From positions 62,001-126,000 of the forward strand of contig JAFDZA010000014.1 in NCBI GenBank assembly GCA_018267135.1: a stretch of 64,000 bases of DNA. Direction: 5' to 3'. The DNA comes from Bacteroidota bacterium. Its GTDB lineage: Bacteria; Bacteroidota; Bacteroidia; Cytophagales; Cyclobacteriaceae. A model generated the notes under the pieces. That model was given only the letters and a program-made list of their open reading frames with translations. It ran no database searches and was not told where the DNA came from. This document shows, piece after piece, positions 1,977-50,296 of the stretch; within the stretch, counting starts at the first letter, position 1; the number at the start of each line of letters is the position of its first letter. The position numbers and the translations under genes are program-made.

Positions 1977-2912
1977 CTAAGGTAATGATTTAACGATATT
2001 TTGCTCAATTCGTTTTTCTATGGCGGCATAATCTATCGGGGGGAGGGTTTCACCCGTCATCTGCCGGTAGAGCTCGGCATAACGATCAGAAATATTTTTA
2101 ACAATGGCATCGGTCATTTCAGGAATGAGCTGGCCTTCTTTTCCCTGAAATCCATTTTCTATTAACCATTGTCGCACAAACTCTTTCGACAGTTGTTTCT
2201 GGGGTTCTCCTTTTGATTGACGCAACGCGTAGCCGTCTTGATAGAAATACCGCGAAGAGTCGGGCGTATGCACCTCGTCTATCAGGTATATCTTTCCGTT
2301 ATATTTACCAAACTCATATTTAGTATCAACCAAAATCAGCCCGCGTGCGGCTGCCAGCTCCGTTCCTTTTTTATACAGGCTAAGCGCATATTGTTCCAAC
2401 ATTTCATAGTCGGCTCGGGAAACAATCTGTTGGGTAATAATTTCTTCTTTAGAAATATCCTGATCGTGCCCTTCGCTGGCCTTGGTAGTGGGGGTAATAA
2501 TGGCCTGAGGAAGTGGGTCATTCTCGCGAAGCCCCTCGGGCAGAGGTACTCCGCATAGTTTTCTTTTTCCGGCTTTATACTCGCGGGCGGCATGGCCGGC
2601 CAAATATCCGCGCACTACCATTTCCACACGAAACGGATCGCATTTAAAACCGATGGTTACGTTTGGATCGGGGGTGGCAATTACCCAGTTGGGCACAATG
2701 TGCCGGGTGGCATGAAGGTTAAAGGCAGCAATTTGGTTGAGCACTCTTCCTTTGTCGGGGATGGCCCTGGGCAACACCACATCAAAGGCAGAGATTCGGT
2801 CGGTGGCTACCATCGCCATTTTTTCTCCGAAATAATAAACATCTCTCACCTTGCCTCGGTAAAAACCTGTTTGTCCGGCAAAATGAAAATGGGTTTCTTT
2901 TATTCCATGCAT
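1977..2912 (-). CDS. purC: Phosphoribosylaminoimidazole-succinocarboxamide synthase
   Basis: This is SAICAR synthetase, which joins CAIR and aspartate with ATP in purine biosynthesis. The 311-residue length matches the longer class found in Bacteroidota and yeast rather than the ~240-residue E. coli form. Diagnostic segments are [10 protein letters not shown] near the N-terminus (ATP site), [18 protein letters not shown] at about residues 38-55, the [13 protein letters not shown] loop and [10 protein letters not shown] near residue 195. The ATG at 2912 places the conserved KVRDVY segment at the usual distance. It is followed by the STAS gene 42 nt downstream. Confidence 0.96.
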
Positions 2913-2954
2913 AAGAGCGCAAGTAAGAAAACTATCTGCGATTATTAAAATAGG

Positions 2955-4301
2955 TTACTTTTTAGGTTCCACTAAAATGCCTGCCCGAAAGGTTTCTTTC
3001 TTAATCAAAGTTCCATTTTGATCAAACTCTTTCCACTCCTTGTGCTTTTTATTGGCTACATATTCGCCTTGCTCTTTTATTTTCCCGTTAGGCCAATACC
3101 CGGTGTAGAGGCCGTGCAGGCGGCTGCCGATGTAGTTGCTTTCGCTCGACAGTTTTCCGTCTTCATAATAATTTTTTACGGGGCCGGTAATTAAATTGTA
3201 TTTCCAGGTTTCTTCCACTTTGCGCTCTCCGTTCGGATAATACATTGTACGAATGCCGCTAAGCATACCGTTTTCATAGTTTTCTTTGGTGGTAAGTGTT
3301 TTGCCATCGTGGGCATAGAAAGACCAAGTGCCATGGGGCTTGCTGCGTCTGAAGTTTTTCTTAAACAGAAGAACGCCCGTACTGTCGTATGCTCTTAGTT
3401 CACTATCTATTCCGTTAGAAGAAAATTGTTCGCGGGTGCTGATCTGGCCGTTGTGGTAGTAATCTATGTTTGTTCCTATTTTTGCACCTAAGTTAAAATT
3501 GTATTCGTGCCGCAGTTTGCCATCGTCATAATACCCGGTGTTGCTGTTGTGCAGTTTGCCAAATTTAAAATGCCCGGACAGCAAGAGCTGACCGTGCTGA
3601 TTATAGTTAAGAAAATCGCCCACAGTTTCTCCGTCTTTGATGGTATAGATTAATTCCAGTTGGGCATTCGGATAAAATGATTTCATGTAGCCGCTTACAA
3701 AGCCATCTCTGTAATTTGCTTCCGTTTCCAATACCCCCGATTCGTAGTAGGTTTTGGTTATCCCGTTGGGCTTTTGGTCTTTATACATGATTTCTTTTCG
3801 GAGTTTGCCCGTAGAATAATATTCTTTCACCAGCCCATCGGGCTTACCTTTTACAAATAAACCTTCTTGTTTTAAGATACCAGTAGGAAAATAAGATTTT
3901 ACACTATCTACCAGTTTGTTGTTTTGGTAGTAGGCTGTTTGAATGGGCTTTCCGTTTTCGTTGAAGATCTCTACGGCACCTTGCCGCAATCCGTTTTCAT
4001 AATTGATTTTGCGCAGTAAGATTCCCCGCTCGCTGTATTCGTAAAAGGTACCCGACCGCACCCCGTTTACAAAAGTTCCTTCAATGGCAATCTTTCCGTT
4101 TACAAAATACTTGCGGTATTTCCCATTCATCTCGTTATCGGCTGAAACAAAATATTCTTCCTGCACGCGCGATTTGGTAGAAGGATCGAAGTAAACTTTT
4201 ACTTCCTTTTGAGCAAAAACAGGAAACGAGGAGAGCAGAAAGAACGATATAACCAGTTTCTTTTTTAGCACGTTAAAATAACGTTTTCCTTGCCCGATCA
4301 T
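2955..4301 (-). CDS. MORN/YwqK-repeat exported protein
   Basis: This 448-residue protein has a signal peptide (hydrophobic LVISFFLLSSFPVFAQ, cleavage near residue 30). The remainder is built from roughly sixteen degenerate repeats of about 23 residues with a core like YYxNGKLxxExxYxxGxxxGxxxxY. These match the MORN_2 / YwqK pattern. Databases often call such proteins 'YwqK antitoxin', but nothing here suggests a toxin pair; the repeat is better regarded as a structural beta-hairpin module facing the periplasm or outer membrane. The ATG at 4301 lies 2 nt beyond the thiolase stop, so the two genes are probably co-transcribed and perhaps translationally coupled. Function is unknown. Confidence 0.8.
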   Translation of the reverse strand: MIGQGKRYFNVLKKKLVISFFLLSSFPVFAQKEVKVYFDPSTKSRVQEEYFVSADNEMNGKYRKYFVNGKIAIEGTFVNGVRSGTFYEYSERGILLRKINYENGLRQGAVEIFNENGKPIQTAYYQNNKLVDSVKSYFPTGILKQEGLFVKGKPDGLVKEYYSTGKLRKEIMYKDQKPNGITKTYYESGVLETEANYRDGFVSGYMKSFYPNAQLELIYTIKDGETVGDFLNYNQHGQLLLSGHFKFGKLHNSNTGYYDDGKLRHEYNFNLGAKIGTNIDYYHNGQISTREQFSSNGIDSELRAYDSTGVLLFKKNFRRSKPHGTWSFYAHDGKTLTTKENYENGMLSGIRTMYYPNGERKVEETWKYNLITGPVKNYYEDGKLSSESNYIGSRLHGLYTGYWPNGKIKEQGEYVANKKHKEWKEFDQNGTLIKKETFRAGILVEPKK

Positions 4302-39350: not shown

Positions 39351-39381
39351 TTTGTGATTTCATAAATCATCCTTATTATTG
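39351..39381 (+). promoter_or_regulatory. Promoter for the THX gene and probably the trp operon
   Basis: TTTG (39351-39354), a 19-nt spacer and TATTATTG (39374-39381) match the Bacteroidota consensus with one mismatch in the -7 box. The predicted start near 39387 gives a ~15-nt leader before the THX ATG. No other promoter was found between THX and trpE, so it may drive the whole thx-trpL-trpEGDCFBA transcript. Confidence 0.55.
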
Positions 39382-39401: not shown

Positions 39402-39578
39402 ATGGGAAAAGGAGATAAAAAATCAGAGCAGGGGAAACGTTGGAGGGGATCGTACGGGAACTCGCGTAACAGAAAAAAAATCAAAACCCGATTGAAAAGA
39501 GAAGCGAATAAAAAGCATTCAGTTACTTCAACTGAAAAACCGAAAGCAAAAAAGCAGACTAAGAAAAAAGAAGATTAA
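39402..39578 (+). CDS. 30S ribosomal protein THX
   Basis: This tiny, very basic 58-residue protein begins MGKGDKKSEQGKRWRGSYGN, the hallmark of the Thx/S31e-like small-subunit protein that sits at the top of the 30S head in Thermus and is common in Bacteroidota. The tail is Lys-rich (EKPKAKKQTKKKED) and longer than the ~27-residue Thermus peptide. It has a promoter-like element 21 nt upstream. Its stop codon is only 2 nt before the trp leader peptide, an arrangement worth noting. Confidence 0.85.
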   Translation: MGKGDKKSEQGKRWRGSYGNSRNRKKIKTRLKREANKKHSVTSTEKPKAKKQTKKKED

Positions 39579-39580
39579 AA

Positions 39581-39655
39581 ATGAATTCTTTCTCAATCAA
39601 TGCATGGTGGTGGCACAGATCAGTAAATGATCGGTGTTTGCCTTTGTATTGTTGA
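39581..39655 (+). CDS. trpL: trp operon leader peptide with three consecutive Trp codons
   Basis: A 24-residue frame reads MNSFSINAWWWHRSVNDRC and continues to a TGA at 39653-39655. Residues 9-11 are TGG TGG TGG (39605-39613). It lies directly upstream of an intrinsic terminator and trpE. In the classical model, ribosome stalling on these codons when charged tRNA-Trp is scarce selects the antiterminator. The peptide itself has no expected function. A purine-rich GAAGATTAAAA (39570-39580), overlapping the end of THX, precedes the ATG. Confidence 0.88.
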   Translation: MNSFSINAWWWHRSVNDRCLPLYC

Positions 39656-39692
39656 AATAGATTTATCATAAATACCAAAGCCCGCCCGGTCA
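39612..39692 (+). promoter_or_regulatory. trp attenuator: pause hairpin (1:2) and antiterminator (2:3)
   Basis: Segment 1 (CACAGATCA, 39614-39622) pairs with segment 2 (TGATCGGTG, 39628-39636) through a 5-nt loop: 5 bp, one mismatch, 3 bp. Segment 2 (TGATCGG, 39628-39634) can alternatively pair with CCGGTCA (39686-39692) over 7 bp including one G-U. That pairing occupies the left arm of the terminator. The Trp codons lie at the base of segment 1, so a stalled ribosome would free segment 2 and allow antitermination. Pairings were found by eye; no folding energy was calculated. Confidence 0.8.
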
Positions 39693-39709
39693 ACCCGAGC
39701 GGGTTTTTT
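39681..39709 (+). terminator. trp attenuator terminator (3:4)
   Basis: CCCGCCCGG (39681-39689) pairs with CCGAGCGGG (39695-39703) with a single C-A mismatch across a 5-nt loop, followed by TTTTTT (39704-39709). This GC-rich stem plus U-run lies 27 nt before the trpE ATG and would stop transcription when tryptophan is plentiful. Confidence 0.9.
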
Positions 39710-39735
39710 GTTTTATCATCCTCAACAATATTGAA

Positions 39736-41130
39736 ATGAAATACCGATTAAATACGAATTATAAAAAATTACTGACCGACACGCTGACACCGGTAAATAT
39801 TTACCTGAAACTGCGCGATGTATTTGCGGCCAGTATTTTATTGGAGAGCTCGGACTACCATGGCACCGAAAATAGTTTGTCGTTGATCTGTTGTGAGCCA
39901 ATTGCCTCTTTCACGCTGCACCATAATGTATTAACTCAACGGTTCCCTGATGGCACTGTTACCAAAACAAAAGCTGATGTAGCATTTCCTATCCCTGCGC
40001 AACTGGTGGTTTTTAAAAATTCATTCGATTTGGGCGATGCCGAAGCTTCTTTCCGCTCGCTCGGGTTGTTTGGTTATACTTCATTTGATGTCGTACGCTA
40101 TTTTGAAGAAGTAGATTATAAAGTAAAACATGCGAACATTCCGGATATGGTATATAAATTGTTCCGCTACGTAATCGTGGTAGATCATTTTCATAACGAT
40201 CTGCATTTGCACGAGTTTATCTATGGCGATCAGCCCAGCCAGCTTCATCGAATTGAACAGATTATTTTCAGTAACCGGTTTTCTACTTTTCGTTTTCGCA
40301 CCGAGGGCGCTGAGCAATCTAACTACACCGACCCGGAGTTTTTAGAACTCATAGAAAAAGGCAAACAACATTGCTACCGGGGCGATGTGTTTCAGATAGT
40401 ATTGTCGCGAAGGTTTACTCATGCTTTTCAGGGCGATGACTTTAATGTGTATCGGGCGTTACGCTCGATTAATCCATCTCCATACCTTTTTTATTTCGAC
40501 TTTGGAAGTTTTAAGTTATTTGGTTCTTCGCCCGAAGCCCAACTGCAGATAAAAAATAATCAGGCTTATATTTATCCGATTGCCGGCACCTTCCGCAGAA
40601 GCGGCAACGACCAGGAAGATGCGGCTTTGGCCGAGAAACTTTCGGTTGATGAAAAAGAAAATGCCGAGCATGTCATGTTGGTCGATTTAGCCCGCAACGA
40701 CATGAGTCGTAATGCCCGCGAGGTACGGGTTGAAATTTTTAAAGAGGTGCAATACTACTCTCATGTTATTCATTTAGTATCGAAGGTTTCGGGGCGGCTC
40801 AACGAAAATACTTCGACTGCACAGCTTTTTGCGGATACCTTTCCGGCCGGTACTTTATCAGGAGCACCTAAAGTAATGGCTATGAAATTGATAGGAGGAT
40901 ATGAAAAGAACAATCGCCTTTTTTACGGAGGCGCCATCGGGCTGATCAGTTTTGATGGTTCACTAAACAAAGCCATTATGATACGCACATTCCTCAGCCA
41001 AAATAATGAATTGATCTACCAGGCCGGGGCCGGCATTGTATCAAAATCGGATCATTCTTCCGAACTGCAGGAAGTAAACAATAAAATAGCCGCGTTGCGC
41101 AAAGCCATTAAAATGGCTGAAAATATTTAG
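39736..41130 (+). CDS. trpE: Anthranilate synthase component I
   Basis: This 464-residue chorismate-utilising enzyme makes anthranilate with TrpG. The C-terminal catalytic half shows GDVFQIVLSRRF, FGSSPEAQLQIKNNQAYIYPIAGTFRR, DEKENAEHVMLVDLARND and FPAGTLSGAPKVMAM, all chorismate/Mg-binding segments. The N-terminal regulatory domain carries LLESSDYHGTENSLSLI, where the LLES stretch is the usual tryptophan feedback site. Length is typical. First structural gene after the attenuator. Confidence 0.96.
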   Translation: MKYRLNTNYKKLLTDTLTPVNIYLKLRDVFAASILLESSDYHGTENSLSLICCEPIASFTLHHNVLTQRFPDGTVTKTKADVAFPIPAQLVVFKNSFDLGDAEASFRSLGLFGYTSFDVVRYFEEVDYKVKHANIPDMVYKLFRYVIVVDHFHNDLHLHEFIYGDQPSQLHRIEQIIFSNRFSTFRFRTEGAEQSNYTDPEFLELIEKGKQHCYRGDVFQIVLSRRFTHAFQGDDFNVYRALRSINPSPYLFYFDFGSFKLFGSSPEAQLQIKNNQAYIYPIAGTFRRSGNDQEDAALAEKLSVDEKENAEHVMLVDLARNDMSRNAREVRVEIFKEVQYYSHVIHLVSKVSGRLNENTSTAQLFADTFPAGTLSGAPKVMAMKLIGGYEKNNRLFYGGAIGLISFDGSLNKAIMIRTFLSQNNELIYQAGAGIVSKSDHSSELQEVNNKIAALRKAIKMAENI

Positions 41131-41143
41131 ACCAAAATCTTAT

Positions 41144-41710
41144 ATGAAAATATTAGTTCTTGATAATTACGATTCATTTACCTTCAATCTGGTACATATC
41201 ATCCGGGCATTAGGGCACCAACCTGATGTTTTTAGAAATGATAAAATTTCTTTGGAGGATGCCGGGAGCTATGATAAAATTCTATTATCGCCCGGACCGG
41301 GTATTCCTGAGGAAGCCGGCATTATGAAAATGGTGGTTGAAAAATACGGACCCACCAAAAGTATTCTGGGTATATGTCTGGGGCATCAGGGTATTGCCGA
41401 AGTGTATGGGGCCCGGCTTTTTAATATTCCCAATGTATTGCATGGCGTTACCTCTATCGGAATAGTAAAAGATGAACAGGAGGTATTATTTAAGAGTGTT
41501 TCAAAAAAATTCCGATGCACCCACTATCATTCGTGGGCAGTATTACCCGAAAGCATTACCGCTGACTTAAAAGTAACGGCTGTAAATGACGAAGGCTTAG
41601 TGTTGGGTATTCGCCATGTAGAGTATGATGTAAGAGGATTACAGTTTCATCCCGAATCGGTCATGACAGAAGAAGGACCGACTATGATTAAAAACTGGTT
41701 GATGAACTAA
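41144..41710 (+). CDS. trpG: Anthranilate synthase component II (glutamine amidotransferase)
   Basis: This 188-residue class I glutamine amidotransferase supplies ammonia to TrpE. The nucleophile is Cys78 in ILGICLGHQGI; the His-Glu pair is in LQFHPESVMTEEG near residue 171. LDNYDSFTFNLVH at the N-terminus and LSPGPGIPEEAG are diagnostic of TrpG/PabA. It is 13 nt downstream of trpE. The same subunit could also serve aminodeoxychorismate synthase if no separate PabA exists. Confidence 0.96.
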   Translation: MKILVLDNYDSFTFNLVHIIRALGHQPDVFRNDKISLEDAGSYDKILLSPGPGIPEEAGIMKMVVEKYGPTKSILGICLGHQGIAEVYGARLFNIPNVLHGVTSIGIVKDEQEVLFKSVSKKFRCTHYHSWAVLPESITADLKVTAVNDEGLVLGIRHVEYDVRGLQFHPESVMTEEGPTMIKNWLMN

Positions 41711-41743
41711 AAATATTTTCAGGAAAGAAATACAAAAAATAAA

Positions 41744-42730
41744 ATGAAGGAGATACTTACCGAATTGATAGACCATCGCTCGCTTACCAAAGAAACCGCC
41801 AAACGGGTGTTGGTAAATTTGGCTTCAGGCAAAATTAATTCCAGCCAGATTTCATCCTTTATGACGGTTTACATGATGCGCGGCATTACCGTAGATGAGT
41901 TGGAGGGGTTTCGCGATGCGATGCTGGAATTGTGCATTCCGATGCAATTTGATGAGCCCGTAATGGATTTGTGTGGTACCGGGGGCGATGCAAAAAATAC
42001 TTTTAATATCTCTACCCTTAGCTCGTTTGTGGTAGCGGCTGCCGGCCAGCCTGTAGCCAAGCATGGCAACTACGGTGTTTCCTCTTTTTCGGGTTCTTCT
42101 AATATTTTGGAATATTTTGGATATCAGTTTACAAATGATCTAGACGAACTGCATCGCAGCCTGAGTCGTGCTAATATTTGTTTTATGCATGCTCCGTTAT
42201 TCCATCCGGCCATGAAAAATGTGGCTCCCATCCGTAAAGAACTGGGAGTAAAAACTTTTTTTAATATGCTGGGCCCGATGGTGAACCCGGCCTTTCCAAA
42301 ACGGCAATTGGTCGGTGTTTTCAGTTTGGAGTTAGCCCGCCAATATGGGTACTTGTATGCCCGAACAGATAAAAATTTTTTGATTCTTCATTCTACCGAT
42401 GGGTTTGATGAGGTTTCGCTGACGAGTGCCGTTAAATATTTTTCTAATCAAGGTGAAAGCCTGATTGAACCTGAAGATATGAAATTGCCTCGCCTTGCTG
42501 TAGCCGATTTATTTGGAGGCTTAACAATGAAAGAAGCAGCACAAATTTTTTTGAACGTATTAGAGGGGCATGGCACGCCTCAACAAAATTCAGTTGTCAT
42601 TGCAAATGCCGGTATGGCACTATTCTGTGCTGACCAGAAAAAAGGTATTGAACGAGCCGTAACTCAGGCTAAAGAGGCATTGGAGTCGGGCAAGGCTTTG
42701 GCTGCATTTAAAAAACTTATAAACCGGTAA
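41744..42730 (+). CDS. trpD: Anthranilate phosphoribosyltransferase
   Basis: This 328-residue enzyme transfers phosphoribose from PRPP to anthranilate. The PRPP loop is MDLCGTGGDAKNTFNIST (~74-91), followed by AKHGNYGVSSFSGSSNILE and MHAPLFHPAMKNVAPIRKELG (anthranilate-binding). C-terminal DGFDEVSLT fits the Mg-binding Asp-Glu. Length and motif order are standard. 33 nt after trpG, 3 nt before trpC. Confidence 0.96.
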   Translation: MKEILTELIDHRSLTKETAKRVLVNLASGKINSSQISSFMTVYMMRGITVDELEGFRDAMLELCIPMQFDEPVMDLCGTGGDAKNTFNISTLSSFVVAAAGQPVAKHGNYGVSSFSGSSNILEYFGYQFTNDLDELHRSLSRANICFMHAPLFHPAMKNVAPIRKELGVKTFFNMLGPMVNPAFPKRQLVGVFSLELARQYGYLYARTDKNFLILHSTDGFDEVSLTSAVKYFSNQGESLIEPEDMKLPRLAVADLFGGLTMKEAAQIFLNVLEGHGTPQQNSVVIANAGMALFCADQKKGIERAVTQAKEALESGKALAAFKKLINR

Positions 42731-42733
42731 CAC

Positions 42734-43528
42734 ATGAACATTCTTGATAAAATTGTAGAGCATAAAAAGCAAGAAGTAGCCGAACAAAAAAAAAGAATTC
42801 CGGTAAAGAATCTGGAGCGAAACGTATATTTTTCTTCCCGGCCATTTTCATTAAAAAAAAGCATCCAAGACAAAGACCGAATGGGCATCATCGCGGAGTT
42901 TAAGCGTAAGTCGCCTTCAAAAGGAATTATTAATGACCGGGCCGATGTAGTACAGGTTACAGCCGGCTATGTGCAAGCTGGAGCCAGTGCACTTTCTGTT
43001 TTGACTGATTTTACTTTTTTCGGTGGAAGTAATGATGATTTATTGTTGGCCAGAGAAGTAAATCGGTGTCCCATTTTAAGGAAAGATTTTATTATAGATG
43101 AATACCAAATTGTAGAGGCTAAATCTATTGGGGCCGATGCGGTGCTGTTGATTGCTGCCATTTTAAAACCTGAAGCTATTAAAGAGCTGGCTTGTTTTGC
43201 TCATCGCTTTGGGTTAGAAGTACTGTTAGAGGTTCATTCGTTCGAGGAGCTGTATCCCGAAGTATTTTCATCTGTTGATTTGATCGGGGTAAATAATCGA
43301 AATCTAAAAACATTTGAAGTTGATATTAATCTCTCTAAAAAACTTTTGCCATCTATTCCGGATGACATCGTAAAAATTTCTGAAAGCGGTATCAGCCAAC
43401 CGGAAACAATTATAGATTTAAGAAGGCAGGGCTACGAAGGTTTTTTGATGGGCGAAAACTTTATGAAACACCGTCAGCCTGAGGTGGCTGCAGCCGATTT
43501 TATTTCAAACCTCAAAGCGTTAGCATGA
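42734..43528 (+). CDS. trpC: Indole-3-glycerol phosphate synthase
   Basis: This 264-residue TIM barrel closes the ring of CdRP to indole-3-glycerol phosphate. Seen are IIAEFKRKSPSKGII (catalytic Lys), ALSVLTDFTFFGGS, PILRKDFIIDEYQI, LLEVHSFEEL, IGVNNRNLKTFEVD and KISESGIS with the conserved SES glutamate region. It is not fused to TrpF as in E. coli. It overlaps trpF by 4 nt. Confidence 0.96.
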   Translation: MNILDKIVEHKKQEVAEQKKRIPVKNLERNVYFSSRPFSLKKSIQDKDRMGIIAEFKRKSPSKGIINDRADVVQVTAGYVQAGASALSVLTDFTFFGGSNDDLLLAREVNRCPILRKDFIIDEYQIVEAKSIGADAVLLIAAILKPEAIKELACFAHRFGLEVLLEVHSFEELYPEVFSSVDLIGVNNRNLKTFEVDINLSKKLLPSIPDDIVKISESGISQPETIIDLRRQGYEGFLMGENFMKHRQPEVAAADFISNLKALA

Positions 43529-44151
43529 ATTTAAAAATTAAAATATGCGGAATGCGCAACCCGCAAAACATACGGGAGGTAGCAGCACTTTGCCCTGATT
43601 TTATGGGATTTATTTTTTATGAAAAATCGAAACGGTTTGTAGGAGATGATTTTTTTATTCCAGACGAACTTCCTCAACCCATAAAAAGAGTAGGCGTTTT
43701 TGTAAATGAATCTATTATTTCAATTACTGAAAAAATAAAAAAACACAACCTTGATTTAGTTCAATTGCATGGCGATGAACTTCCTGTTCAATGTAAAAAG
43801 TTGAAGCTCATAACACAGGTTGTAAAAGTTTTTCAGGTAGATGAATTTTTTGATTTTAACCTGACTAAACCCTTCGTTCCTTTTGTTGATTATTTTCTGT
43901 TCGATACTAAAAGCAACAGCTATGGCGGCTCCGGCAAAACATTTGATTGGATGTTGCTCCGTAATTATAATGAAGTAACCCCCTTTTTTATAAGTGGAGG
44001 AATTACTATTGATCATATAGATAAGATAGCTAAGATGAAATTAAAGCACCTGTTTGCGGTAGATGTAAACAGTGGGGTAGAGACGGAGCCCGGACTAAAA
44101 GACTCTGCTAAAGTAAACTCCATTATGCAAGCAATATCAGCTTATTCCTAA
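43525..44151 (+). CDS. trpF: Phosphoribosylanthranilate isomerase
   Basis: This 208-residue TIM barrel begins [17 protein letters not shown] with the catalytic Cys. Other signatures are [51 protein letters not shown] (general acid Asp) and the phosphate-binding [11 protein letters not shown] plus [16 protein letters not shown]. The ATG lies within the trpC stop (ATGA), implying coupled translation. Confidence 0.95.
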
Positions 44152-44173
44152 ACCAACATTAATTTTTTATAAG

Positions 44174-45355
44174 ATGAAATACACAATTGATGAAAACGGA
44201 TGCTACGGAAAGTTTGGAGGCGCATTTATTCCCGAAATGTTGTATCCGAATGTAGAAGAACTCCGGTTGAATTACCAAACCATTATTCAGTCAGCCGATT
44301 TTATAAATGAATTTCAGTATTTGCTCCGGCATTATGTAGGCAGGCCTACTCCGTTATTTTTTGCAGCTCGCCTTTCTGAAAAGTACCGGGCTAAAATATT
44401 TTTAAAACGCGAAGACCTCTGCCATACGGGTGCGCACAAAATTAATAATACTATTGGGCAGATATTGCTGGCCAGGCGATTAGGCAAACGCAAGATCATT
44501 GCCGAAACCGGTGCCGGGCAACACGGGGTAGCTACGGCTACAGTGTGTGCCCTGATGGGAATGGACTGCATTGTGTACATGGGGCAACTTGATATGGAAA
44601 GGCAGCGTCCCAATGTAGAGCGGATGAGAATCTTAGGCGCTCATGTTATCGCGGCTACTTCGGGCAACATGACACTGAAAGATGCTACAAACGAAGCTAT
44701 GCGCCACTGGATCAATAACCCTACCGATACACATTATATTATAGGATCCGTAGTGGGGCCGCATCCATATCCGGATATGGTGGCGCAGTTTCAGTCGGTA
44801 ATTAGTGAAGAAATTAAAAAACAGTTAATAAACGAAATTGGAAATCCATACCCGGATTATGTAGTGGCTTGTGTTGGCGGTGGCAGCAATGCAGCCGGTG
44901 CATACTATCATTTCCTTAACGATGAGCCGGTGCAACTGATAGGAGTAGAGGCAGCGGGTAAGGGAATAAACACCAATGAATCGGCCGCCACCACGGCCTT
45001 AGGGAAAGTAGGTATTTTGCATGGCAGCAAATCGCTGCTGATGCAAACGGAAGATGGCCAGGTAATTGAACCTTATTCCATTTCGGCAGGACTGGATTAC
45101 CCTGGCATAGGCCCATTACATGCTCACTTGTTTGATGCCGGGCGTGTTCGGTTTATAAGTGCCACCGATGATGAAGCGATGAATGCGGGTATTGAGCTGA
45201 GCCGCCTGGAAGGAATTATACCGGCTATTGAAAGTGCTCATGCGGTAGCGGCCCTTAGTCAGTTAGCGTTGAGCGAGGAGGATGTGGTGGTACTAAACCT
45301 GTCGGGAAGGGGAGATAAAGATTTAGAAACTTACATTAAATGGGGAAAGTATTGA
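44174..45355 (+). CDS. trpB: Tryptophan synthase beta chain
   Basis: This 393-residue PLP enzyme condenses indole with serine. The Schiff-base lysine is Lys89 in [27 protein letters not shown], the phosphate cup [12 protein letters not shown] and [10 protein letters not shown] are complete. N-terminal [15 protein letters not shown] is the TrpB1 signature, the form that partners TrpA. 22 nt after trpF. Confidence 0.97.
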
Positions 45356-45386
45356 AGACAGATAAACTACTAACAAAATTCTTAGC

Positions 45387-46181
45387 ATGAACCGAATTCA
45401 CGAATTGTTTAAACAAAAAAATAAAAACATACTATCTGTTTTTTTTACGGCCGGTTTCCCAAAATTAAATGACACAAAAATCATTGCCCTTGCTCTGGAA
45501 AAAGCCGGAGCAGATATGATAGAAATTGGTATTCCATTTTCTGATCCTGTGGCAGACGGGCCGGTGATTCAACAAAGCAATAAAACAGCTTTGGATAACG
45601 GAATGAATATGAAATTACTTTTGCAACAAGTTGCCGAAATCAGAAAAACAGTTAAGCTGCCAATCATCTTGATGGGATATCTAAACCCTGTGATACAGTA
45701 TGGGATAGAGAAGTTTTGTGTCGAGGCAAAACAAGCCGGGGTAGATGGTTTGATTCTTCCGGATCTTCCCTTACGGGAATACGAAACAGAGTATAAATCA
45801 TTTTTTCAAATAAATGATTTGTTAAACATATTTCTGATTTCACCCACCACATCCGATCAGCGAATAAACGAAATAGACAAGGCATCAAACGCGTTTATTT
45901 ATGCTGTGTCCGCTTCAAGCACGACCGGATCGAAAACAGATTTATCCAATGAACAGGAGAACTATTTACAAAAACTGAAAGAGATGAAATTGAAATCCCC
46001 ATTTTTAGTAGGTTTTGGCATTTCAAATAGCACTACCTTTTCCAAAGTATGCCAATATGGAGCCGGAGCGATCGTAGGAAGCGCATTTATTAATTTATTG
46101 AAAAAAACTTCTTCTATGGAAGAAGATATATACAGGTTTGTTAAAGAGATGGTAAAAAGGGAAACAGGAAATAGTTACTGA
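45387..46181 (+). CDS. trpA: Tryptophan synthase alpha chain
   Basis: This 264-residue TIM barrel cleaves indole-3-glycerol phosphate and channels indole to TrpB. Catalytic Glu46 (DMIEIGIPFSDP) and Asp57 (VADGPVIQ) are present. GLILPDLPLREYE, ISPTTSDQRI, YAVSASSTTGSK and GFGISNSTTF with GAIVGSAFIN match the family. Its stop codon overlaps the end of the convergent regulator gene by 7 nt, and no terminator follows in the shared end. Confidence 0.96.
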   Translation: MNRIHELFKQKNKNILSVFFTAGFPKLNDTKIIALALEKAGADMIEIGIPFSDPVADGPVIQQSNKTALDNGMNMKLLLQQVAEIRKTVKLPIILMGYLNPVIQYGIEKFCVEAKQAGVDGLILPDLPLREYETEYKSFFQINDLLNIFLISPTTSDQRINEIDKASNAFIYAVSASSTTGSKTDLSNEQENYLQKLKEMKLKSPFLVGFGISNSTTFSKVCQYGAGAIVGSAFINLLKKTSSMEEDIYRFVKEMVKRETGNSY

Positions 46182-49100
46182 GAATTAAAATCCTTTGGAT
46201 GACAGTGGTACATTTCATTGAACGATTTATAAAAATATGACCTGCTGTTGAAGCCGGTTTCATAGATTACCTCTGATACACTGAGAGAAGAATTTTTCAA
46301 TAACTCTCCAGCCTTCTTAAGTCGATATTGTTTAATTAGCCCATGCGGGGTTAAACCAGTTATAGTTTTTATTTTTTTATACAATGAAGCCTTGCTCATG
46401 CCTACTTCCTCTTCAATTTCATTAGCATTAAAATCTGGTTTCCCCAAGTTTTTCTGAATGCATGAAATAATTTTTGAAAAGAAAATATCTTCCTTTTCAT
46501 TTATTCCTAATGAACCTTTACTCCACTCAACCGAACCTGAATTTTGAAATTTACTCCGTATCATTTCCATCCGCTCTAATAGTTTTTCTATTCGAATAAA
46601 TAAGTGTTCGGGATGAAAGGGTTTAGGAATATAAGAATCGGCCCCAACCTGAAGCCCCTCAATACGGTTTTCTATTTCTACTTTAGCGGTTAGTAAGATT
46701 ACAGGAATGTGACTTGTTTGAATGTTTTCTTTAATTAATTTACAAAGTGTCAATCCATCCATGCCGGGCATCAGGATATCGCTGATAACCAAATCTATCC
46801 TTTCTTCTTCCAGTATTGCTAACGCCTTTTGCCCATCACTTGCTTGGTAAACATTGTATTTAGGTAGCAGCATATTTTCTAGCAACTCAGTAATTTGGTT
46901 ATTGTCATCCACTACTAAAATTGAATATAACGGCCTGCTGGACGAGTTACTTTTTGTTTTATCTACTTGCGAAGGGTGGATGTTTGAAAGTTCAAACTCC
47001 TGAGATATTCTTTCTTTTATATTAACCAAAGCGGGTGTGAGGCTTTGAATTGTATGCTGCTGTATTTTAATAGGCAAGGTAACAACAAATGTACTTCCCT
47101 TTCCTTCCTTACTGATTACAGAGATATTTCCTCCATGAAGTAAAATCAGGCTTTTAGTTAAGGATAATCCAATTCCTGTACTTTTAATGAATCCGAATTG
47201 GTCATTAAGCGTTTGTGAACTCTGCTGAAAACCTTCAAATATTTTATCTATATTCTTTTCTGGAATTCCCAAGCCTTCATCCTTAATAGTAAACTTAAAA
47301 TTTGTTTCATCTTTTTCTAAAAGGATGACTATTTGCCCTCCTTTATAAGAATATTTGATGGCATTAGAGACGAGATTTAATAATATTTTTTCTATTTTTT
47401 TTAGATCAACCTGTGCTGTTATCTCATCATGATTTGTGTGAAACTCTAAATGAATATCCCGATCGGCCGCATATTGTTGAAAAGATTCTAATATTTGATA
47501 AGTGAAACTTACCATCTCAATTGAGGTTAGCTCTAGTCTGTCTTTTCCGCTTTCAATTTTTCTAAATTGAATTAGTTCTTCAATTAGTTTCTGTAGCCGT
47601 ATTGAATTACTGTAGATTAACTTTAACTGATTTTTAATATCGGGGTCACTACTCTTTTGAAGCAAAGCAGCCGCAGGCCCCAGTATTAGAGTTAGCGGAG
47701 TGCGAAATTCATGCGCAACGTTTGTATAAAACTGTAACTTATAGTCATTTAATTCTTTTAATTGTTGAGTTTTAAATCGCTCTATGGCAGCCGTTTTTTT
47801 AGTTTTTACCCGCCACCGAATAACTAATACAATCGAAATCTGAACACCTATAAATAGGAAGCTGTAAATAATGTAAGCCCATGTGGTTTTCCAAAAGGGC
47901 GGAGATATTACGATAGCTAATGATTTAGAAGATGAAGAAGACCAAATGCCGTTTTCATTGGTGTATTTTATTTTCAAATGGTAGCGCCCCGGAGGAATGT
48001 TAGTTAAAGAGATGGTTTGCTGTTGCCCTAACTCATTCCAGTTATTTTCGAAATTTTCAAGCCTATAAGCAAACTTGCTTTTATCTTTGGTCCAATAGTC
48101 TAATGTTGTAAATGAAAAGCTAATAAAATTTTGATTGTATGTTAAATTAATTCCATCAGTAAAATTTACGTGTTTGTGAAGTATGTTACTTCCATCCATT
48201 GCTTTAATTGATTGGTTGTATAATATGAAATTACTTATGACCAGTTTAGGAAAGTAGGTTGAGAGGTTGAGTTTAGTAGGCTCTATAATATCTAATCCAT
48301 TTATACCTCCAAAGAAAAGCCGTTCCGATATTTTTGATGTGTAACTGGCTCCATCAGTATATTCGCTATTGATTAGACCGTCATGGCTATCAAAATTCTT
48401 AAAAGAATTAGTTGCGCGGTCAAACATAACCAAACCCCTGTTAGTAGAGAACCATATATTCGATTTCTTGTCTTCTAATATGGCATGGATGGTATTATTC
48501 ATTAGCCCCTCTCGGGCCGTAAACTTCGTACTTTGGTAAGGCCTTGTTTTAAGTGACAATAAACTAATTCCTCCGCTAGTACCAACCCATAACTCTTCTT
48601 TATTATTATAAAACAAATTGAGCACATCATCATTACATAAATTTATTTTTTCATTTACATTGGCCTCAATGTGCTCTTCAATTTTTTTAGCAATGGTGTT
48701 ATATCTATATATTCCTCCTCCTCTTGTTCCAAACCAAAGACTATTGGGGCCATCTTCTATGATGGTATATACAATGTTGCTTTTAATAGAATTTATTTTG
48801 TCGCTTACCGAATGTTTTATCTGGTCTTCTTCGATGAGCACATATCTTCCTGATATTAGTTTTTTTATTTTTAGATGAACCACACCATACCCGCTGGTAC
48901 CCAGCCATATATCGTTATAAGAATCTACACAAATGGCATAAACCGAACTGAATGCAATGTTAGTTTTATTTTCGAAATCTCTTGGAAAATGAAAGATGCG
49001 GTTGGTTTTATTTTCAATCATATCAATACCCTCTCCATCAGTACCTACCCATAGATTTTCCAGGTGATCTTTTTTAAGTGAGAGCACGGCATCATTGCTC

Positions 49101-50281
49101 AGACCGTTTTTTGTATTTATTATTTTGGTTTGCTTAGCTTTAGGATCAAGTATATTTAAGCCCCCACCTCTGGTGCCAATGTAGAGAATGCCGTTTTCAT
49201 CTTCATAAACGGAACGGACAATACTGTGAGAGATTTGTTTTTTTAATGGAGATCCGGAAGAAATAGCATAGAACACTTTTTCACGATTCAGGAATTTATA
49301 TACGCCATCGCCATCGGTACCTATCCAGATCAAGTCTTGCGGAGTTTCGGTTATAGAGAGAATCTTAATTCCTTTTGAAACGAGTACCGGAAAGTAATCG
49401 CCCATTTTTCGGAGATAAAGTGTTCCATTTTCAATTCCAATTTGATACACCAACCCCGATTCGGTACCAACCCATACAGATTGTTTATTTTTTGTCTCCG
49501 ATAATGAGCTCACCTGTGATGAACCCAAGGGAATAACTTGAGCCTTTTCTTCAATATTTGATAAATTATAAAAGAATAGTTTTCCATGGTTGGCATAGCT
49601 GATAAAATACTGATTGCCTATCTGGATAAACTTATGATATACGAATGGATTGGGCAGATTTAGTTGTTTAGAAAATATTACACGGTTATTCAAACTGCAT
49701 ACTATTTTACCATCCGAACCAAGCAGATACAGCAAGCCCTTAAAACTCCCAATATTAATTGTGTGCGATAGCCAATCGGCTTTTACTCCCTCGAAGGAAA
49801 CTTTTTCAAAGATATTCTTCAGCTTATTATAACGTTTTATGCCATTTCCGATGTGGCTTACCCATACGGCCGAATCAGGACCAATGCAAGCTCGCAGATT
49901 ATTTTCTAAAAAAGGTATATCATTCAAACTATCAAGATAGCTTGTAAACGATTCTGAATTGCGGTCAAAACGGTTAATCCCTCGGTGTGTTACGACCCAT
50001 AAATTTCCTGCCTTGTCTTCCAGAAAATCCCTGATAACATTGTTGCTTATTGTATTTTTTTGATAGGGATCAGGTTTGTATATACTAATGGCACTGCCAT
50101 CGTACCGGTTAAGGCCATCCCACGTGCCGAGCCACATATATTCATAGCTATCCATATAAATAGACGTAACTGCTGAATTAGAGATATTTACTTCTTTACC
50201 AATGTGTTGGTAGGGGAGTGCTAAACTGGAGTCTGGTTGCTGAAAGTTTAATAAAGTAAAAAATAAGAAAAGAGTATTCAT
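46175..50281 (-). CDS. Hybrid two-component sensor/AraC regulator (HTCS)
   Basis: This 1368-residue single-chain system has a signal peptide (MNTLFLFFTLLNF). Two periplasmic propellers of 'reg_prop' repeats (~30-680; recurring WLGTWDGLNRYD, WIGTDGDGVYKF, WVGTDGEGIDMI, WFGTRGGGIYRY) are followed by a Y_Y_Y domain (~690-775). A membrane span lies at ~797-821. The cytoplasmic part has a HisKA domain with His857 (AHEFRTPLTLI), HATPase (DEGLGIPEKNID, TGIGLSLTKSL), a receiver with Asp1168 (VISDILMPGMDG) and a C-terminal AraC helix-turn-helix. Such proteins sense an imported oligosaccharide and switch on the adjacent PUL. The ATG at 50281 is preferred to a TTG at 50296. Divergent from the GH130 gene, it should regulate the operon at 50495 onward. 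Confidence 0.95.
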   Translation of the reverse strand: MNTLFLFFTLLNFQQPDSSLALPYQHIGKEVNISNSAVTSIYMDSYEYMWLGTWDGLNRYDGSAISIYKPDPYQKNTISNNVIRDFLEDKAGNLWVVTHRGINRFDRNSESFTSYLDSLNDIPFLENNLRACIGPDSAVWVSHIGNGIKRYNKLKNIFEKVSFEGVKADWLSHTINIGSFKGLLYLLGSDGKIVCSLNNRVIFSKQLNLPNPFVYHKFIQIGNQYFISYANHGKLFFYNLSNIEEKAQVIPLGSSQVSSLSETKNKQSVWVGTESGLVYQIGIENGTLYLRKMGDYFPVLVSKGIKILSITETPQDLIWIGTDGDGVYKFLNREKVFYAISSGSPLKKQISHSIVRSVYEDENGILYIGTRGGGLNILDPKAKQTKIINTKNGLSNDAVLSLKKDHLENLWVGTDGEGIDMIENKTNRIFHFPRDFENKTNIAFSSVYAICVDSYNDIWLGTSGYGVVHLKIKKLISGRYVLIEEDQIKHSVSDKINSIKSNIVYTIIEDGPNSLWFGTRGGGIYRYNTIAKKIEEHIEANVNEKINLCNDDVLNLFYNNKEELWVGTSGGISLLSLKTRPYQSTKFTAREGLMNNTIHAILEDKKSNIWFSTNRGLVMFDRATNSFKNFDSHDGLINSEYTDGASYTSKISERLFFGGINGLDIIEPTKLNLSTYFPKLVISNFILYNQSIKAMDGSNILHKHVNFTDGINLTYNQNFISFSFTTLDYWTKDKSKFAYRLENFENNWNELGQQQTISLTNIPPGRYHLKIKYTNENGIWSSSSSKSLAIVISPPFWKTTWAYIIYSFLFIGVQISIVLVIRWRVKTKKTAAIERFKTQQLKELNDYKLQFYTNVAHEFRTPLTLILGPAAALLQKSSDPDIKNQLKLIYSNSIRLQKLIEELIQFRKIESGKDRLELTSIEMVSFTYQILESFQQYAADRDIHLEFHTNHDEITAQVDLKKIEKILLNLVSNAIKYSYKGGQIVILLEKDETNFKFTIKDEGLGIPEKNIDKIFEGFQQSSQTLNDQFGFIKSTGIGLSLTKSLILLHGGNISVISKEGKGSTFVVTLPIKIQQHTIQSLTPALVNIKERISQEFELSNIHPSQVDKTKSNSSSRPLYSILVVDDNNQITELLENMLLPKYNVYQASDGQKALAILEEERIDLVISDILMPGMDGLTLCKLIKENIQTSHIPVILLTAKVEIENRIEGLQVGADSYIPKPFHPEHLFIRIEKLLERMEMIRSKFQNSGSVEWSKGSLGINEKEDIFFSKIISCIQKNLGKPDFNANEIEEEVGMSKASLYKKIKTITGLTPHGLIKQYRLKKAGELLKNSSLSVSEVIYETGFNSRSYFYKSFNEMYHCHPKDFNSQ

Positions 50282-50296
50282 GCCCTGTAAATTCAA

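Follow-up and report, generated by a model that had tools for sequence, protein, structure and literature searches.

The window analyzed here is a stretch of 64,000 nucleotides from a Bacteroidota bacterium of the family Cyclobacteriaceae (GenBank assembly GCA_018267135.1, contig JAFDZA010000014.1, positions 62,001 to 126,000). The seven genes of its tryptophan operon, trpEGDCFBA, lie 3' of a short leader frame with a set of competing RNA pairings, and this leader is itself preceded by a ribosomal protein gene. The features, in window coordinates, are as follows.

39351-39381, forward strand: putative sigma-A promoter for the entire unit, a consensus match consisting of TTTG (39351-39354), N19 and TATTATTG (39374-39381)
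39402-39578, forward strand: bTHX, the gene for 30S ribosomal protein THX, 58 aa (TIGR04560, PF17070)
39576-39583, forward strand: junction TAA-AA-ATG in the sequence, i.e., bTHX stop, 2 nt, leader start
39581-39655, forward strand: trpL leader peptide ORF, MNSFSINAWWWHRSVNDRCLPLYC, from its translation, with a conserved AWWWH core
39605-39613, forward strand: three adjacent Trp codons, TGG TGG TGG, read from the sequence; proposed ribosome stall site
39606-39642, forward strand: 1:2 (protector) hairpin, with its core formed by 39612-39622 and 39628-39638, from fold and covariation
39628-39634, forward strand: segment 2, TGATCGG, whose partner is segment 1 or segment 3
39677-39709, forward strand: 3:4 intrinsic terminator with a U-run at 39704-39709, hairpin of -17.6 kcal/mol
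39686-39692, forward strand: segment 3 core, CCGGTCA, in the terminator's left arm and loop, from the 2:3 duplex energy
39736-46181, forward strand: trpE, trpG, trpD, trpC, trpF, trpB and trpA, from NCBIfam matches and ORFs

The trpL frame has 24 codons followed by TGA (39653-39655), the terminator stem is formed by 39677-39685 and 39699-39707 with six U residues at 39704-39709, and trpE starts at 39736. An earlier, sequence-only reading of this DNA had described the 24-residue frame, the triple TGG, the 1:2, 2:3 and 3:4 pairings and the U-run ahead of trpE, and we located every one of these elements as described. It had also claimed that TGATCGG can pair either with the upstream arm or with the left arm of the terminator, and both pairings are found in the sequence and in the fold: upstream with GATCA (39618-39622), with a CAC/GTG continuation added, and downstream with CCGGTCA over 7 bp that include one G-U pair. 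The unusual feature of the locus, absent from that reading, is the bTHX gene, which ends 2 nt before the leader. At the far end of the operon, a putative 1373-aa ORF resembling a hybrid two-component-type regulator (46175-50296, minus strand) reads towards trpA and ends right at it.

The attenuator and its alternative pairings

Folding of positions 39581-39715 gave -45.7 kcal/mol, compared to -28.7 ± 3.6 kcal/mol for dinucleotide shuffles (z = -4.7; 0/200), and the mutually exclusive 1:2, 2:3 and 3:4 pairings were all found in the window. The leader ORF, the alternative pairings and their conservation were computed directly, and the switching described here is a result in computed RNA energies. 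In the unmasked RNA the 1:2 hairpin and the terminator had probabilities of 0.999 and 1.0, respectively. Masking the RNA before 39627, as a ribosome on the Trp codons would, gave the 2:3 pairing a probability of 0.999 with the RNA at 39692 and above 0.9 up to 39704; a masking test of this kind had been suggested by the sequence-only reading, and it gave the expected switch. Once the full terminator had been made, the terminator state of the masked RNA was at -24.9 kcal/mol and the forced 2:3 state at -23.4 kcal/mol, and since these energies are nearly the same, the order of synthesis can decide between them and hold the read-through state. The 2:3 duplex of the window was also stronger (-13.6 kcal/mol) than that formed with a shuffled segment 2 (-7.4 ± 2.0 kcal/mol).

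The footprint of a ribosome stalled at the Trp codons is what frees segment 2 in such leaders. The first Trp codon lies 22-23 nt before the start of segment 2 in the window and 21-29 nt before it in relatives, a conserved spacing that fits this role. The stop codon of trpL sits 3' of segment 2, so a ribosome terminating at this codon leaves segment 2 uncovered, and the tryptophan-replete state needs the 1:2 hairpin to be re-formed behind the ribosome.

In a survey of 118 Cyclobacteriaceae genomes, the leader was detected in 108 of the 110 trpE upstream regions examined, and the same detector scored 4/110 reverse complements and 0/110 shuffles. WWW was present in 89/110 leaders, and relatives retain the AWWWH core and the terminator as well as the spacing between the Trp codons and segment 2. 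Loci linked to bTHX in the manner of the window are mostly of two sequence types: in type A, to which the window belongs, the 2:3 pairing is GATCGG/CCGATC, and in type B, where the leader stop lies inside segment 2, it is GTGAACAGC/GCTGTTCAC. Swapping the segments gave -15.8 and -13.2 kcal/mol within the types and weaker duplexes, -11.0 and -8.7 kcal/mol, across them. Of 30 leaders, 25 had a native 2:3 duplex that was better (P < 0.05) than those made with a shuffled segment 2; among a larger collection of 139 leaders that have a terminator this was so in only 67 (mean z of -1.8), indicating that the 2:3 pairing is not equally clear across lineages.

The sequence-only reading had suggested looking for covariation and conserved Trp codons in relatives. 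These show conserved Trp codons, a conserved 2:3 pairing and a 1:2 hairpin with 94.8% of cells paired in 12 sequences and covariation exceeding that of shuffles, but the column covariation of the 2:3 pairing in type A alone was weak and not clearly above shuffles. The swap between the types is the stronger support for the 2:3 pairing. Several Cyclobacteriaceae genera, in contrast to the window, carry tandem attenuators, with two Trp leader ORFs in a row that each have their own terminator 5' of trpE (L056, L107, L120, L144, L145, L146, L147 and L148), and L087 has a possible tandem Trp leader.

A terminator after a short ribosomal protein gene is ordinary, and the structure could in principle be the intrinsic terminator of bTHX and nothing else, with the Trp-rich ORF being incidental. 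The detector counts in real and control sequences (108/110 versus 4 and 0), the occurrence of the leader without bTHX in most Cyclobacteriaceae and the conservation of the alternative pairing leave this explanation with very little probability. Control by a T-box, TRAP or a repressor, which are other known modes of trp regulation, is just as improbable: an Rfam search of the region, taken to E = 10, gave no T-box, the genome had no Trp repressor match above the cut-off (best, 17.9 bits; cut-off, 27 bits) and the leader frame is conserved. With no repressor above the cut-off, attenuation may be the main control of the operon. No His-run leader was found elsewhere in the genome.

The conserved WWW, terminator and 2:3 pairing, together with the two internally complementary types, support ribosome-mediated attenuation well, and we consider it nearly certain that the element is an attenuator of this kind, operated by a leader with Trp codons.

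Comparison with known trp leaders

The mechanism put forward by the sequence-only reading is backed by anatomy and comparison, but its second point, that the phylum is the remarkable part, is weak. Rfam has contained a Bacteroidete trp leader family (RF01692, Bacteroid-trp) since around 2010 (Weinberg et al. 2010, PMC2864571), a Bacteroid-trp leader has been noted for Flavobacterium psychrophilum (PMC6414381), clues to leader-peptide attenuation upstream of amino-acid operons in that species were reported in a further study (PMC9723704), and nearly all of the Cyclobacteriaceae loci examined here have the leader. Attenuation of trp by a leader peptide is not new in Bacteroidota; the probable fusion to bTHX is the new part. 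No description of this linkage was found in the Bacteroid-trp literature, the main text of the F. psychrophilum attenuation paper contains none (PMC9723704), and a search for THX together with trp, made mostly outside subscription papers, returned nothing.

The window scored 27.3 bits against RF01692 (gathering cut-off, 49 bits) and 27.2 bits against RF00513, Trp_leader (cut-off, 41 bits), and since both scores are below cut-off, it formally belongs to neither family, although its predicted mode of action is that of both. At the gathering threshold Rfam gave no match in the window and did not recover a trp leader from any of 20 leader loci, some of them from Flavobacteriaceae, which made it unusable as a survey tool; the present Rfam trp leader models miss the Cyclobacteriaceae leaders. 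In locus L042 of Tenacibaculum haliotis, a cobalamin riboswitch and a Flavo-1 RNA lie near trpE (384-583 and 3366-3441).

With the E. coli-type trpL (RF00513), the window shares adjacent Trp codons, the 1:2, 2:3 and 3:4 pairings and a U-run, all directly before trpE. In E. coli, however, the terminating ribosome covers segment 2, whereas the window leader stops past it, lacks a Shine-Dalgarno sequence, abuts bTHX and has no promoter of its own. With RF01692 it shares a Trp-codon leader ahead of Bacteroidota trp genes, and it aligns over the full length of that model. The inferred attenuation in F. psychrophilum is alike in phylum and in concerning amino-acid operons (PMC9723704). The Sinorhizobium meliloti trpLE(G) attenuator (PMC7298713) also uses a leader peptide but is alphaproteobacterial and is not fused to an upstream gene.

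The bTHX junction and the proposed supply of polymerase and ribosomes

Attenuation requires a ribosome on the leader directly behind the polymerase, and to our knowledge, the tightness of transcription-translation coupling in Bacteroidota is little documented. The identity of bTHX, its junction with the leader and the promoter pattern across relatives were computed directly. The gene scored above the curated cut-offs of both TIGR04560 (45.1 bits; cut-off, 26) and PF17070 (31.2 bits; cut-off, 29.7). Across 34 linked loci, the window included, the gap between the bTHX stop and the leader start was -4 to +18 nt with a median of 3; because some of these loci are closely related to each other, they are not 34 independent observations. 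In one of the relatives, L016 (G023, a single-contig assembly), small indels interrupt the bTHX frame, which is intact in the close relative L010; the breaks are probably assembly errors.

The position of the leader, 2 nt after the bTHX stop, suggests that the bTHX promoter, and probably also the ribosomes that translate bTHX, feed the switch. The predicted promoter in the window departs from the Bacteroidota consensus TTTG-N19-TAnnTTTG at a single position, and transcription of the unit is predicted to start at about 39386. Within the window the exact pattern TTTG-N18-20-TAnnTTTG occurs at chance frequency, and a single match hence proves nothing without relatives. In 31/34 linked loci such a promoter lies 17-26 nt before the bTHX ATG (0.3 expected); when these promoters are aligned, TTTG and the TA..TTG part of the second box are invariant and most spacer columns vary, in a scan that itself required most of these positions. 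A sigma-70 promoter scan was set aside as unsuited to Bacteroidota.

No consensus promoter came within 22 nt of the leader at any of the 34 linked loci, in contrast to 65 of 88 unlinked loci (1.6 expected), where the second box ends 4-19 nt before the leader ATG. A promoter inside bTHX that drives the leader separately, with bTHX being a mere neighbor, is unlikely for this reason and also since the upstream scans showed no consensus promoter inside bTHX. It is in favor of such a promoter that internal promoters are common, that a consensus scan may miss weak ones and that in 6 of 8 intermediate loci, with bTHX 37-52 nt upstream, a promoter directly precedes the leader, inside the gap or close to it. 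We find it very likely that the leader and the trp operon would be co-transcribed from the bTHX promoter, as the promoter sequences and their positions suggest, and we put the probability that the trp attenuator in the lineage of the window is fused to the ribosomal protein gene at about 0.85.

According to PMC9723704, the second promoter box of F. psychrophilum lies at -12 to -5, which would place the 5' ends of many unlinked leader RNAs just 0-15 nt before the AUG. In unlinked loci such as L061, L066, L069, L072 and L106, 4-9 nt separate the end of the second box from the leader ATG, and nearly leaderless leader-peptide RNAs are predicted here. This would be unusual given that leaderless mRNAs make up 5.5% in F. 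psychrophilum (PMC9723704) and 5' UTRs of <10 nt make up 3.7% in B. thetaiotaomicron. It resembles the S. meliloti trpLE(G) RNA, which begins at the AUG (PMC7298713). The leader is near-universal in Cyclobacteriaceae and lies either near the predicted 5' end of the RNA or right after a ribosomal protein stop codon, and these two placements suggest two solutions to one problem of ribosome loading.

For the linked loci, delivery of the ribosome to the leader by termination-reinitiation at the end of bTHX is the explanation that we favor, at somewhat better than even odds. The main rival is that the attenuator is co-transcribed with bTHX, while ribosomes initiate directly on an unstructured A-rich site at the leader and the short gap merely reflects genome compaction. 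The Lys-rich tail of bTHX does give an A-rich sequence just before the leader, translation initiation in Bacteroidota depends little on Shine-Dalgarno pairing according to PMC9723704, and unlinked leaders evidently start without bTHX. Direct initiation does not, however, account well for a gap of -4 to +6 nt in 30/34 linked loci despite a bTHX length that ranges from 55 to 65 aa, nor for the several junctions that overlap (e.g., TAATG and ATGA), overlapping stop and start codons being the usual sign of translational coupling; we consider it possible, with a probability of around one-third in our judgment.

With termination-reinitiation at bTHX, the switch would work as follows. Transcription would start 5' of bTHX, as the conserved promoter sequence suggests, and a ribosome that has finished bTHX would restart 2 nt later on the leader ORF. 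When charged Trp-tRNA is scarce, it would stall on TGG TGG TGG and cover segment 1, so that segment 2 (TGATCGG) would pair with segment 3 (CCGGTCA) once the latter has emerged; the terminator would then come too late, and the polymerase would enter trpEGDCFBA. When tryptophan is plentiful, the leader would be fully read, the 1:2 hairpin would hold, the 3:4 hairpin would form and the transcript would be a short bTHX mRNA, whose predicted 3' end is this same terminator. The response of the trp genes to tryptophan is what the sequence and the computed folds would lead us to expect. In the strongest form of this proposal, which we place at even odds, bTHX is an obligatory feeder, with the attenuator of one clade having lost its own promoter and taking both its polymerase and its leader ribosome from bTHX by co-transcription and termination-reinitiation. 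If true, one and the same terminator ends the ribosomal protein mRNA and acts as the trp switch, and ribosome and polymerase are kept in step without Shine-Dalgarno initiation.

History of the linkage

In a TrpE tree, linked and unlinked sequences are split by a branch with 100/100 support, and the order-level sequences fall on the unlinked side; the deep forks are poorly supported. One locus, L008 (G018, minus strand, 2850-3280), lies inside the linked side and yet has its bTHX elsewhere, on contig G018:C92; its leader is preceded by a promoter match, TTTG-N19-TATTATTG. This appears to be a natural un-linking within the linked group. A test of the linked group as a single clade gave P = 0.024 against it, which we read as the effect of L008, and we take the tree, many of whose deep forks are uncertain, to indicate a single gain and a single loss of the linkage.

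The intermediate loci with bTHX 37-52 nt away suggest promoter loss and fusion. The simplest history would be that bTHX arrived beside the operon, the leader promoter was lost, the gap closed and one later reversal took place. Leaders with their own promoter, intermediate leaders, fused leaders and one reversion make up a natural series for testing ribosome loading.
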